Positions 44,736-49,000 of a stretch of DNA of 64,000 nt are shown one piece after another. The DNA lies in the NCBI RefSeq assembly GCF_010975035.1, contig NZ_JAAIUV010000007.1:62001-126000 (forward strand), given 5' to 3'. The stretch comes from Neobacillus thermocopriae. GTDB lineage: Bacteria > Bacillota > Bacilli > Bacillales > Cytobacillaceae. Position 1 is the stretch's first letter. Each line of letters begins with the position of its first letter. Both the position numbers and the translations under genes were made by a program. The notes beneath the pieces are model-generated. The model was not told the DNA's origin and searched no databases. It saw only the letters and a list, made by a program, of their open reading frames with translations.

Positions 44736-44744
44736 TTTGTCGAA
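44736..44744 (+). promoter_or_regulatory. Spo0A box upstream of the KinB-like kinase
   Basis: TTTGTCGAA followed by AAAA is a perfect 0A box 130 bp before the kinase ATG. A -10-like TAGAAT lies downstream near 44800. Confidence 0.55.
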
Positions 44745-44865: not shown

Positions 44866-46122
44866 ATGAAAACTGAAAGTATTATCGGAAAGCTAATATT
44901 CGAAGAAAGAAGAGCTAATACTCTTTTTTTATGGCTATTTTATATATTATTTTTAGTCTTTGACCTGCTTTGGTATATTGTTTTACCCCGTTTTTCGAGG
45001 TTTGGTGATAAAGAATTTCTTAAAACAGGACTTGGTTACTGTGTATTTGTATTTATGTTTATTTTGTTATTTTTCACTTATAAATTAAATAAAAATGGAA
45101 ATCCATATAAAGTAAAATATATTTTATTTATAAGTTATATTTTGATTGATGTGACTGATAATGTGTTAAGATATTTTGGAACAACTCTTCAGTTTGCTTC
45201 TGGAAATATTGTAGAGCTTTTATTTGTTTTTATGTCACCAATTTTTGTAAATAAAAGGTACTTTTGGACTGTGTCCTTAGGAGTTATTGGGAAATATATA
45301 TTATTAGGTATTATACTTCACACTGCTGATGTATTAGCACCTATTATTATTTTAAGTATATTAGCAGCAATTGCTTTTATTCTATTAAAGAGATTTAATT
45401 CATACGTAGAATCTTTAACATCTGTTCATGAAGAACTTCGTCAAAAAGAGAGGCTTGCAATTATTGGCCAAATGTCTGCTGCTATAGGACATGAGATAAG
45501 AAATCCTATGGCATCTTTAAAAGGTTTTATCCAGTTGCAGAGAGAACAGTATCCGAATACAAATGATTATTATTCTATTATGATACAGGAAATTGATCGT
45601 ATTGATTCAATTATTGATGATTTAATGTATATCGGTAAACCCCGAGTTATTCAATTTAATAAAGGGGATATAAAAGAAATTATTAACTATACTATATCCA
45701 TTGCAAAACAACAAGATGAAGAAAATAGGATTGTATTTGAAACTAAGATAGAGGATGCAATTCCTGAAATTGATTGTGTCGAAAAAAGGCTAAAGCAGGT
45801 ACTAATCAACTTAATAAAAAATGCAATAGAGGCAATGCCTGAAGGAGGCAGAATAACTATTTCTGCTGGGGTTTTAGATCGTACAAAAGTTTGGTTAACC
45901 ATTGAGGATGAAGGAGATGGAATAAAGGAAGAAAATATTGCTAATATTAGCCTTCCATTTTTTACAACAAAAAAAAATGGCACTGGCTTAGGACTGATGG
46001 TTTCTGAACAGATTATAAAAGACCATAATGGTAGTATAAAATTTGAGAGTACTGAAAAAAAAGGGACAAAAGTAATAGTTGAACTTCCAATTGTTCAGAT
46101 CAACAAAAAAATTAATCATTAA
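44866..46122 (+). CDS. membrane sensor histidine kinase, KinB-like
   Basis: 418 residues. Residues 1-180 form six predicted membrane helices with very short loops and no extracellular domain. A short linker leads to the HisKA domain with His209 in GHEIRNPMASLKGFIQLQ, and the ATPase domain has N-box LINLIKNAIEAM, G1 EDEGDGIKEEN and GTGLGLMVSEQI. The architecture and H-box match KinB and related orphan kinases that feed the sporulation phosphorelay. No response regulator is adjacent. The membrane domain is clearly related to that of the next gene. AAAGGAG precedes the ATG, and a Spo0A box lies upstream. Confidence 0.87.
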   Translation: MKTESIIGKLIFEERRANTLFLWLFYILFLVFDLLWYIVLPRFSRFGDKEFLKTGLGYCVFVFMFILLFFTYKLNKNGNPYKVKYILFISYILIDVTDNVLRYFGTTLQFASGNIVELLFVFMSPIFVNKRYFWTVSLGVIGKYILLGIILHTADVLAPIIILSILAAIAFILLKRFNSYVESLTSVHEELRQKERLAIIGQMSAAIGHEIRNPMASLKGFIQLQREQYPNTNDYYSIMIQEIDRIDSIIDDLMYIGKPRVIQFNKGDIKEIINYTISIAKQQDEENRIVFETKIEDAIPEIDCVEKRLKQVLINLIKNAIEAMPEGGRITISAGVLDRTKVWLTIEDEGDGIKEENIANISLPFFTTKKNGTGLGLMVSEQIIKDHNGSIKFESTEKKGTKVIVELPIVQINKKINH

Positions 46123-46284
46123 ATCATTGAAAATTTACAAAAACATTGTTACAAGGTTTATTTATTAATATATAATAAATGAAGGAATAGTTAAAATAAG
46201 ATAAATTTTATAAAAATAATTCAGGTAATTTTTCCTCTAGAATACCTACATTTAGGAAAAAGGATATGATATTTGGAGGATTTT

Positions 46285-47445
46285 ATGATATCTTATGAAG
46301 AGAAGCAAACTATAAAATGGTTTTTAATATTTTTCTATATAATATTTATTGCATATGATTATTTTTTTTATTACCTTCTGCCAGTACATATACTTCATAG
46401 GGAGAATGAAGTATCATATGATTATTGGTATATTAATTATATAGTACTAGCAATATTGATACCTATTTCCTATTATTTATATAGAATAGGAAAATACTCA
46501 TTAATCAAATTTGTTTTTTTTCTTGGATTTTTAACTGCTACCTTTATTACAGATTTAATCACTTACTATGGCAGAGGAGAATCTTATACGAGTGGTAATA
46601 TGGTCGAAGTGTTTTTGTTTTTATCATTGCCACTTTTTCTCAGTTTAAGTTACTACTGGTTAGTTAGCATAGGGATTGTTTTTAAGTATGTATTTCTCGG
46701 TATAATATTGGATAATTCCTATGTTGTAATGCCTGGCATATTAACAATAATATTATCGATTATGTCATTCTTTTTATTAAGCCGTTTTAAGAGATATGTT
46801 AAAGCAATTAGCTTATCATACGATAAACAATTAGAAGGAATAGTAAAGGGAGTTATTGCAACTTTAGAATTAAAAGATCCTTATACCAGGGGCCATAGTG
46901 AAAGAGTTGCTAATTATGCTTTATTACTTGCTAAGGAAATAGGCAAGCTTACAAAGAAAGAACAAAAATCATTTTATTATGCTTGTTTGCTTCATGATAT
47001 TGGGAAAATTCATATACCGGATACTATTTTAATGAAGCCTGGCAAACTTACTAAAGAAGAGTATGAAATAATAAAAACACATCCAGTTGTTGGTGAGGAA
47101 GCTGTTAAAGATGTTGAAGGTATAAAAAATTATATTAGTGTTATACGTTCACACCATGAACGTTGGGATGGTAAAGGTTATCCAGATCAATTAAAAGGAA
47201 CAGAGATTCCATTACTTGCAAGGGTAATAGCAATTGCAGATGCATTTGATGCCATGACTTCGTCAAGATCCTACAGAGCTGCATTGCCTGTAGATGAAGC
47301 ATATAATCGAATAATTGAAGGTAAGGGTTCACAGTTTGACCCATTGCTAGTTGAATCATTTAAAAAAGTATATCCAGCATGGGTTGACTATCATTATAAA
47401 TATCCTTGGAAAGAAAGGATTGTACTTAAGGAGGTGGAAGGATGA
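46285..47445 (+). CDS. membrane HD-GYP domain protein (probable c-di-GMP phosphodiesterase)
   Basis: 386 residues. An N-terminal six-helix membrane domain (1-180) shares SGNMVEVFLFLSLP and KYVFLGIIL with the preceding kinase. The C-terminal HD-GYP domain has the metal-binding dyad His237-Asp238 in CLLHDIGKIHIPD, HxxxxxHPxxG region KTHPVVGEEA, HHERWDGKGYP with the GYP triplet at 298-300, and IADAFDAMTSSRSYR. All catalytic motifs are intact, so hydrolysis of c-di-GMP or a related dinucleotide is plausible. ATG at 46285 follows GGAGG by 5 nt. Its stop codon overlaps the start of a 23-residue peptide gene. Confidence 0.88.
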   Translation: MISYEEKQTIKWFLIFFYIIFIAYDYFFYYLLPVHILHRENEVSYDYWYINYIVLAILIPISYYLYRIGKYSLIKFVFFLGFLTATFITDLITYYGRGESYTSGNMVEVFLFLSLPLFLSLSYYWLVSIGIVFKYVFLGIILDNSYVVMPGILTIILSIMSFFLLSRFKRYVKAISLSYDKQLEGIVKGVIATLELKDPYTRGHSERVANYALLLAKEIGKLTKKEQKSFYYACLLHDIGKIHIPDTILMKPGKLTKEEYEIIKTHPVVGEEAVKDVEGIKNYISVIRSHHERWDGKGYPDQLKGTEIPLLARVIAIADAFDAMTSSRSYRAALPVDEAYNRIIEGKGSQFDPLLVESFKKVYPAWVDYHYKYPWKERIVLKEVEG

Positions 47446-47513
47446 AAATCCGTAAGCTTAAAAAAGTTAAGACAACTTGCTGGTGGTGTGGCTATTTTGG
47501 AATCAGACCATGA
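47442..47513 (+). CDS. 23-residue Cys/Trp-rich peptide, translationally coupled to the HD-GYP gene
   Basis: A short frame too small for routine ORF calling. Its ATG overlaps the HD-GYP stop (ATGA), and a perfect Shine-Dalgarno AAGGAGGTG ends 5 nt upstream, so translation is very likely. The product starts MKIRKLKKVK (strongly basic, no hydrophobic signal peptide) and ends CWWCGYFGIRP. A terminator follows at once, so it is the last gene of its unit. It resembles a peptide pheromone or RiPP precursor in size and residue choice. The nearby PqqD-like/M50 protease fits with maturation. No family is recognised and the function is unknown. Confidence 0.7.
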   Translation: MKIRKLKKVKTTCWWCGYFGIRP

Positions 47514-47519
47514 TAAATT

Positions 47520-47556
47520 ATGGATGCTAGCATAAAGCTATGCATCCATGTTTTTT
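47520..47556 (+). terminator. terminator after the short peptide gene
   Basis: ATGGATGCTAGC-ataaa-GCTATGCATCCAT (one bulge) followed by GTTTTTT. Confidence 0.8.
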
Positions 47557-47574
47557 ATCTTCTGGCTGTAATAA

Positions 47575-47682
47575 ATGGAAATGGTTGATTATTTATGAGC
47601 TGATGGGAGTAAAGGGAACAAAGGATCTTTAAAATTCGGCACATATACTTTTGTTTGTGGTGGATTCAGAGAAGTTGATTAA
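47575..47682 (+). pseudogene. possible decayed second peptide gene with an in-frame TGA
   Basis: A 35-codon frame starts MEMVDYL, is interrupted by TGA at 47596-47598, and resumes for 27 codons ending FGTYTFVCGGFREVD and TAA. The second part has peptide-like residues but no start codon or ribosome binding site of its own. It lies between the Cys/Trp peptide and the M50 protease. It could equally be chance. Confidence 0.2.
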
Positions 47683-47812
47683 TATCTTTTAATAGTATGG
47701 GTTTTAGTATCTCTATTAATTAATAAGTGCTACGGACTATAATGAATAAGTCTGGAGTACAAACCAACACCTAGTAGCACAGTTGTATTTTTAATAGATA
47801 ATGGTGAAAAAA

Positions 47813-49000
47813 ATGAATCTTACTTTAAAATCTAATATTTCCATAGTCCCAATCAATATCCAAAAAGATAAAAAACATTATATAGTAGAGGACAAGAATT
47901 CCGGTGAGTTTTATGAAATGCCGGAGATATGTATTGAAGCTATTCATTTAATGAATGATGGAATGGCATTAGGTGAGATTGAGGAGTTTCTTAAAGGAAA
48001 GTACCCTAATGAAGAAGTTGATCTTCTTGATTTTGCAAAGCAATTGATGGAGCTACAATTAATTGCTGAAATTGATGGGGTTAAAATAGATATTCATGAA
48101 AAAGGGAAGGAAGAACAAGGATTTCAATGGGTGTCTCCAAAACTAGGAAAATTTTTCTTTAATCAAGTCTCATTGGTCGTGTATTCAATATTTTTCGTGG
48201 GTATTATTCTGATGTTCATTCTGGAACCATCCTTGTTTCCACATTATAAAGATTTGTTTATTTTTCATTTATTAGCACTTAATATTCCTGGATGGCTTAT
48301 TTTATCTTTCATTTTAGTAATGATTCATGAATTTGGACATATTTTAGCGGTTAGATCTTTTAACCTTCCAACGAAATTGGGGATTGGACACCGGTTATTC
48401 TTAGTTGTTCTTGAAACAGACATGTCGTCTGTTTGGAAACTACCATCAAAGGATCGGAATGTTTTATTTTTAGCAGGGTTATGTTTTGATACAACGATAC
48501 TTTTCTTTGTTCTACTTGCTCAGTTAATTTTTTCTGATGGACCATTCATTTTTCTTGGTTTTCTTAAGCTCGCTGCATTGGATATATTCATTCGAATGAT
48601 TTATCAATGCTGTTTTTATATGAAAACGGATATATATTATGTAATTGAAAATCTTACTGGCTGTTATAATTTGATGGAAAATGCAGAGCAGGTAATAAGA
48701 AACAAGCTATCATTTTTTAAGAGTGTCCGTCAAAATGAAGTTGTATTTGATGAAGAAAAAAGAACGGTTCATGTGTATGCCTTATTTTACTTTGTAGGAG
48801 TGGGTTTGACACTAACCCTATTCTTCGGATATTTCATCCCGCAAGTTGTGACAGCATTGACAACCATTGATCATTGTTTTTCCTATGGACCGTCATCCTA
48901 TCATTTTTGGAATGCCGTCTTTTCTACGCTGCAATTACTCATTGGATTACTATTGCTCTTATATTCATTAAGAAAAAAATATATTTTAAAAAGGTTATAG
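47813..49000 (+). CDS. PqqD-like/M50 family membrane zinc metalloprotease
   Basis: 395 residues. Residues 1-95 form a soluble domain with a winged-helix PqqD-like pattern (ISIVPINIQKDKKHYIVED, GEIEEFLKGKYPNEEVDLLD), the fold that binds leader peptides in RiPP systems. About six membrane helices follow. The first bundle carries HEFGH (172-176), the HExxH zinc site of site-2-type proteases, and a later MKTDIYYVIE supplies the likely third metal ligand. The layout is like YydH-type peptide peptidases/exporters. ATG at 47813 with GGTGA 5 nt upstream is preferred to ATG 47801. It follows the Cys/Trp peptide unit, its probable substrate by proximity. Confidence 0.78.
   Translation: MNLTLKSNISIVPINIQKDKKHYIVEDKNSGEFYEMPEICIEAIHLMNDGMALGEIEEFLKGKYPNEEVDLLDFAKQLMELQLIAEIDGVKIDIHEKGKEEQGFQWVSPKLGKFFFNQVSLVVYSIFFVGIILMFILEPSLFPHYKDLFIFHLLALNIPGWLILSFILVMIHEFGHILAVRSFNLPTKLGIGHRLFLVVLETDMSSVWKLPSKDRNVLFLAGLCFDTTILFFVLLAQLIFSDGPFIFLGFLKLAALDIFIRMIYQCCFYMKTDIYYVIENLTGCYNLMENAEQVIRNKLSFFKSVRQNEVVFDEEKRTVHVYALFYFVGVGLTLTLFFGYFIPQVVTALTTIDHCFSYGPSSYHFWNAVFSTLQLLIGLLLLLYSLRKKYILKRL

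Follow-up and report, generated by a model that had tools for sequence, protein, structure and literature searches.

A conserved short peptide with a variable tail is encoded between MASE12-HD-GYP and PqqD-M50 genes in Neobacillus thermocopriae and its relatives

Within a 64,000-nucleotide stretch of the Neobacillus thermocopriae genome (contig NZ_JAAIUV010000007.1, positions 62,001 to 126,000; hereafter the window), a gene of 23 codons (47442..47513, + strand) lies between the genes of an HD-GYP protein and of a membrane metalloprotease of the M50 family. Its product, MKIRKLKKVKTTCWWCGYFGIRP, consists of a conserved leader, a CWxC motif and a variable tail, and is kept across relatives. The peptide ATG at 47442 overlaps the stop codon of the HD-GYP gene (46285..47445, +; ATG at 46285, end of the stop codon at 47445) as ATGA, and a ribosome-binding site, AAGGAGGTG (47429..47437, +), can be read directly from the sequence 5′ of it. 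Between the peptide and M50 genes stands a terminator-like element, a GGATGC-loop-GCATCC hairpin followed by a T-rich stretch (47522..47547, +). The M50 gene (47816..49000, +) carries an HEFGH motif and encodes a protease fused to a PqqD-like recognition element (RRE) of the kind associated with ribosomally synthesized and post-translationally modified peptides (RiPPs); we propose it as the maturation protease. Comparison with relatives makes 47816 (MNLTL) a more likely start for this gene than 47801. A sensor kinase gene (44866..46122, +) precedes the HD-GYP gene, with Pfam matches to MASE12 (2.8e-32), HATPase_c (7.2e-26) and HisKA (7.8e-12). The Pfam scan places MASE12 (PF20971) as the N-terminal membrane sensor domain of both the kinase and the HD-GYP protein, the latter being the proposed receptor and cyclic-dinucleotide phosphodiesterase. 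On re-reading, the sequences and coordinates that an earlier note on this DNA gave for the kinase, HD-GYP, peptide and M50 genes hold.

The 23-codon frame is a real peptide gene. Relatives were fetched through similarity to the M50 or HD-GYP protein, the peptide not being used, and of the 40 regions obtained 38 held both genes. All 38 encode the peptide between HD-GYP and M50, as CWWC in 31 and as CW[ILV]C in 7, six of the latter starting with TTG. The remaining two regions, a distant M50 relative (L105, 28% identity, whose 325 bp of upstream sequence contain no such frame) and a fragment (G059), lack the peptide, and MASE12 is found in neither genome. The earlier note had named loss of the frame in relatives retaining HD-GYP and M50 as grounds for refutation; no such loss was observed in the 38 loci. 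In the 38 loci, Arg4 and Leu6 are both invariant and each is encoded by 5 different codons, that is, with synonymous variation.

Additionally, a degenerate DNA pattern of the peptide was scanned over named genome contigs and returned at least 119 stretches, from which 80 loci were taken. Of these 80, 67 contain an in-frame peptide, 57 of them new, and the other 13 were rejected as chance matches with no in-frame peptide. Together with the 38 similarity-found loci this gave 105 peptide loci, or 95 after removal of 10 duplicates. Because the pattern search partly imposes the conserved residues, conservation was judged on the 38 loci found by similarity. The 67 pattern-scan peptides span 18 genus names, including Neobacillus, Mesobacillus, Gracilibacillus, Oceanobacillus, Virgibacillus, Paenibacillus, Sporosarcina and Solibacillus, or 17 when Chryseobacterium sp. 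ISL-80 is set aside. The tail of the locus on that contig (L183), PFSKQ, is identical to that of a Mesobacillus locus (L168), and the record is probably mislabelled or contaminated.

Of the 95 non-duplicate loci, 93 have HD-GYP, peptide and PqqD-M50 in this order, and the remaining pair (L119 and L174) break off on one side where the locus ends. A Shine-Dalgarno-like motif precedes all 95 peptides under a broad definition, and a strong one precedes 91. The ATGA overlap that had been described for the window is present there but not universal, as peptide and HD-GYP genes overlap in 52 of 93 loci and are separated by a gap in 41. On the downstream side, the distance from the peptide stop to the possible M50 start at 47801 is 287 nt in the window (47514-47800), compared with 41-130 nt in 90 of 93 loci. 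The gap is thus about 200 nt longer than usual in relatives.

The peptides are 19-26 residues long, and we know of no shorter leader-plus-core precursor. The leader, 12 residues in 85 of 95 members, is near-fixed and strongly basic, with 537 Lys or Arg against 6 Asp or Glu among 1157 leader residues. After it come CWxC and a tail of 3-10 residues, of which there are 91 distinct versions among the 95 peptides. Position 2 of the tail is Phe, Tyr or Trp in 74 of 95, and only two acidic residues occur in all tails. No family was named when 40 peptides of the CWWC type were scanned against Pfam and NCBIfam; the few matches at E≤10 were to two zinc-finger families and an unrelated NCBIfam model, the zinc-finger profiles matching weakly through CxxC (3 members, best E 0.037; 1 member, E 0.02).

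The distribution of the peptide coincides with that of MASE12. In a set of 60 relatives, MASE12 occurs in 38 genomes, exactly those carrying the peptide locus; the 22 others, one of which belongs to the genus of the window, lack it. The peptide pattern by itself found 36 of the 38 (the two missed have a K-to-R change) and matched nothing in the 22. Of these 38 genomes, 35 come from one genus, and counted by genus the figure is 4 of 25. In a class-wide set, MASE12 was detected in 9 of 398 genomes and 5 of 146 genera, and all nine genomes carry the peptide, seven by pattern and two by reading (variants MNIRKL... and MKVKKL...HCWWCIFM). The pattern matched nothing in the other 389 genomes; since it misses variants, absence there is stated by pattern and by MASE12. 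MASE12 was also absent from 14 well-known control genomes, B. subtilis included. In the genome of the window there are two MASE12 matches, both at this locus. That genome measures 3.2 Mb at 99.97% completeness, against 4.6-7.1 Mb in the 35 congeners listed, and is a reduced genome that retains the module. In one congener (G006), M50, MASE12 and the peptide pattern were all unseen.

By fold matching, the M50 protein joins a PqqD-like, winged-helix leader-binding fold to a site-2-protease fold. It has the HExxH zinc motif and the distal Asp ligand of M50 proteases in a membrane fold, and its winged-helix leader-binding fold is that of PqqD-like RREs. Leader-binding domains borne by a protease are typical of maturation enzymes. 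Two NCBIfam protease models matched members of the family at E≤0.5 without matching the window protein: the daptide protease NF041824 (29 of 47, best 1.4e-8) and the YydH/LiaK-type epipeptide protease NF058609 (3 of 47, best 4.5e-6). The HD-GYP protein carries the HD, HHE and GYP motifs in the corresponding fold. Its best PDB profile match by E-value is a 3′3′-cyclic GMP-AMP (3′3′-cGAMP) phosphodiesterase, and five GGDEF matches lie in the genome of the window; either cyclic di-GMP or 3′3′-cGAMP may be the substrate. The last ~20 residues of the HD-GYP protein, which adjoin the peptide (47380-47442), are hypervariable, with a mean distance of 0.70.

We then compared distances between tails with those between domains of the neighbouring proteins. 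Of the 76 loci with complete HD-GYP and M50 genes, two with a short HD-GYP gene were removed, leaving 74; kinase comparisons used 42 loci, and 30 loci were close relatives. With the HD domain and M50 controlled for, tail distance followed MASE12 distance (partial r 0.31, p 0.001, n=74). In the 30 close relatives, the partial r was 0.41 for MASE12 (p 0.0005), -0.05 for the HD domain and 0.11 for M50 (p 0.042). With 30-residue windows, the signal extended across all six MASE12 windows (0.12-0.23) and stayed at or below 0.10 in the HD domain, and there was no tail signal in M50 (-0.05 to 0.07) or, over the 42 loci, in the kinase (-0.23 to 0.01). Similarly, when tails were sorted into seven groups (30 labelled of 42 loci), the MASE12 tree required 9 changes, the HD tree 11, the M50 tree 15 and the kinase tree 16, counts that come without a shuffled control; a looser grouping required 11, 14, 17 and 19, respectively. 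The five tails with PGWK or PGYK are adjacent in MASE12 order and take places 40, 47, 58, 66 and 69 in M50 order, while a sixth tail with PGY (L152) falls outside their cluster.

M50 starts about 70 bp past the peptide in most loci. Because M50 is the immediate downstream neighbour of the tail and yet the tail follows HD-GYP, linkage to neighbours alone does not explain the pattern. When protein windows were used as stand-ins for the tail, its value was not reached by any of 98 M50 windows, in any of three sets, or by any of 103 kinase windows. The firm conclusion is that the peptide and the HD-GYP gene travel together as a matched cassette. MASE12 is the likely contact of the tail. Two results limit the latter assignment. 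First, among 49 HD-GYP windows, 4 reached the value of the tail in the full set and 6 in the 42-locus set, and none of 46 did so in close relatives. Second, leader distances likewise track the two halves of HD-GYP (0.28 and 0.29). Linkage within the HD-GYP gene may therefore account for the match between tail and MASE12.

The kinase looks accessory and outside the core: it is missing from part of the loci (present in 49 of 69 with at least 3 kb upstream), its MASE12 domain does not track the peptide tail, and one genome (G039) has a MASE12 protein, a kinase by its sequence features as read, at a distance from the peptide locus (L236 5210-6439, - strand). By eye, this last gene adjoins a TetR-like regulator and an ABC transporter. 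In two other loci (L074 and L082), two MASE12 kinases stand in tandem 5′ of the HD-GYP gene. The kinase gene of the window is preceded by a Spo0A-box-like TTGTCGAA (44737..44744, +), which we take to be the core of the Spo0A box. The exact 8-mer, on either strand, lies within 250 bp 5′ of 21 of 48 kinase starts, against a background of 0.018 per 250 bp; 19 copies are at -106 to -142 and two at -76. These observations make the kinase a probable Spo0A-regulated partner rather than the main receptor of the peptide. Of the self-contained circuit inferred in the earlier note, a unit of the peptide, HD-GYP and M50 genes is supported by gene order and by their distribution with MASE12; the kinase is optional. 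Upstream of the HD-GYP gene there is a promoter-like GTTACA-17-TATAAT (46148..46176, +; 10 of 12 consensus matches). Such sites are not enriched in the region (22 found, 25.5 expected from shuffling), and a similar site is seen in some relatives, e.g., L084, L086 and L091, in a comparison made with no control.

The hairpin behind the peptide gene is widespread. Its stem pattern is present in 82 of 94 loci, with the 5′ arm GGATGC in 57 and the 3′ arm GCATCC in 72 of the 82, and the 12 loci lacking the pattern include some with different hairpins. A stricter search that combined hairpin energy with a T run retained 60 of 93 loci. In the genome of the window, this hairpin is the sole match to GGATGCTN{6,18}GCATCC. 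An alignment of 28 of the 95 loci, all picked for showing the motif, so that invariance is partly a matter of choice, has a nearly invariant stem and hence no covariation to test; its single consensus fold, from a search that did not cover alternatives, contains one hairpin and no other pairing. In most loci it is the stem sequence itself that is kept, beyond its pairing. The likely role of the hairpin is partial termination after the precursor gene.

To describe the shared neighbourhood, frames of at least 90 residues from loci of 1.7-16 kb were clustered into families, which were not each named by profile. MASE12 proteins were present in 93 loci and M50 in 88. Besides these, no family of at least 90 residues occurred in more than 39 of the 95 loci, and the window was not profile-scanned for radical SAM, LanC or AgrB. 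The next commonest families are downstream, in 28-39 loci each, and probably reflect the gene order of the genus of the window. With no further shared family, the core appears to contain no modifying enzyme or exporter. The label RiPP-like, which the earlier note had applied to the system, accordingly suits the protease with its leader-binding and site-2-protease folds but lacks the counterpart of a modifying-enzyme family common to the loci.

We propose, with a probability of roughly 0.58, that the locus encodes a peptide-signalling module, most likely a pheromone system, with an HD-GYP receptor matched to the variable tail. A precursor of 19-26 residues would be made together with the receptor, and the PqqD-like domain of the M50 protein would bind its near-invariant basic leader. 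The site-2-protease part would then cleave the peptide in or at the membrane, yielding a short product that runs from near CWxC through the variable tail. The MASE12 domain of the HD-GYP protein would sense this product, altering the phosphodiesterase activity and thereby the level of a cyclic dinucleotide. The tail would serve as a private specificity code that changes with the HD-GYP gene, and the hairpin probably restricts transcription into M50. In some genomes, the histidine kinase, a second MASE12 protein with a Spo0A-box-like element in part of the loci, would join the module. The conservation of the peptide, the gene order, the co-distribution with MASE12, the folds, the catalytic residues and the tail following HD-GYP are observed; from them, we infer cleavage, export and sensing, as well as the direction of the effect and the nucleotide used. 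In line with this reading, a review (passages of PMC10885120) describes the M50 protease EpeP as enough for making the epipeptide and suggests that it cleaves and exports the product; it adds that production was not fully abolished by epeP deletion. More tentatively, the module might represent a class of Gram-positive pheromones whose membrane receptor doubles as a cyclic-dinucleotide phosphodiesterase, so that a peptide passing between cells would set a second messenger directly and without a histidine kinase; a single RRE-fused intramembrane protease would mature the precursor, and MASE12 would be the receptor domain dedicated to this peptide family. We consider this possible, though short of an even chance.

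An unlikely alternative, but the best of the remaining ones, is that the peptide stays in the cell as a small regulatory subunit of HD-GYP, bound on MASE12 and perhaps forming a metal site with CxxC, and is destroyed by M50. The overlapping frames of peptide and HD-GYP in 52 of 93 loci, the co-occurrence with MASE12, the leader and tail both following HD-GYP, the lack of an exporter family common to the loci and the weak zinc-finger matches through CxxC are all compatible with such a subunit. However, its contact surface should be kept, whereas 91 tail variants occur among 95 peptides, and the leader-binding domain assigned to the protease by fold matching points to maturation.

It is more doubtful still that the peptide is the precursor of an epipeptide-type antimicrobial or sibling-killing peptide, with HD-GYP and the kinase regulating it or protecting the cell. 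M50 members do match the epipeptide and daptide protease models (3 and 29 of 47, respectively, at E≤0.5), and the tail is aromatic. In passages of PMC12871923, epeX is followed by a terminator, and a ribosome stall is reported ahead of the maturation genes, a precursor-hairpin-maturation order like the one seen here. The epipeptide locus epeXEPAB (yydFGHIJ) of Bacillus subtilis shares a small precursor, a terminator behind it and a maturing, possibly exporting M50 protease (parts of PMC10885120 and PMC12871923). In contrast, among the clustered families here, no epimerase, ABC transporter, immunity transporter or modifying-enzyme family is common to the loci. The precursor is shorter, with no resemblance seen, and it is constantly accompanied by a MASE12-HD-GYP sensor-phosphodiesterase of a type that goes with the tail.

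A regulatory leader peptide, in which stalling at CWWC or tryptophan shortage would set the hairpin and hence M50 expression, is very improbable. Tandem Trp codons occur in most members, the hairpin and T-rich stretch lie close behind the stop codon, and the stall ahead of a terminator reported for epeX (excerpt of PMC12871923) offers a precedent. Yet seven peptides have a single Trp, as CW[ILV]C, the consensus of the 28 picked loci, from a search that did not cover alternative folds, holds one hairpin and no other pairing, and a stalling frame need not keep MKIRKL at the protein level or vary its tail with HD-GYP. Finally, a chance small frame kept behind HD-GYP by translational coupling alone, as its shortness and the overlap in about half of the loci (52/93) might suggest, is refuted by its conservation in 38 of 38 loci with synonymous codon change, which holds outside the overlap and in the 41 of 93 gapped loci.

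The proposed signalling module resembles several known systems in part. ComQXPA, as described in passages of PMC4008528, likewise pairs a variable peptide with a polytopic membrane receptor whose N-terminal half varies. The neighbours here are HD-GYP and M50 (93 of 95 loci, the other two cut) in place of the prenyltransferase ComQ and ComA; moreover, the receptor proposed here is a phosphodiesterase, and no tail signal is seen in the kinase. Agr (AgrBDCA) is alike in outline, with a leader and variable end, a membrane protease and a membrane receptor. It uses a single ring-forming residue, where this peptide has CWxC. The adjacent protease here is M50 by motif and fold, unlike the AgrB-type cysteine protease, and no AgrC/AgrA-like pair is among the families common to the loci. 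Eep, an M50 protease of streptococci and enterococci, matures short pheromone signals from signal-sequence precursors that are exported by PptAB and have cytoplasmic receptors, whereas an RRE-fused protease and a membrane HD-GYP protein are present here. As for daptides, the similarity lies in the metalloprotease of family members (NF041824), the window protein being unmatched and no other biosynthesis family being common to the loci. AgrB and MroQ are treated in PMC10885120.

Among the literature matches listed, no paper deals with a PqqD/M50/HD-GYP/peptide system, judged by title or the start of the abstract. Three candidates were set aside: PMC2759079, the single match to a peptide string, is a powdery mildew effector paper; PMC4979651 is a review of RiPP cyclisation and does not concern this system; and the MASE12 mentions in PMC7190382 are three locus-tag passages. 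The other MASE12 match was an image-processing paper.

The leader-plus-variable-tail pattern, the presence of MASE12 in both proteins and the conserved hairpin go beyond the earlier note. If the proposed signalling reading is true, it would provide a ligand for the MASE12 domain of Pfam and tie peptide communication directly to cyclic-dinucleotide signalling in Bacillaceae and Paenibacillaceae, with the kinase as a possible further link to sporulation; it would also add a peptide family left unnamed by Pfam and NCBIfam scans. Compact as it is, the three-gene unit could be transferred to Bacillus subtilis, one of the 14 control genomes in which MASE12 had no match. Distant matches to the PqqD-M50 protein also occur in 28 plasmid records (21 from Streptomyces, 1 from Priestia koreensis and others); the 10 matches listed share 25-28% identity, and the proteins are mostly annotated as hypothetical.

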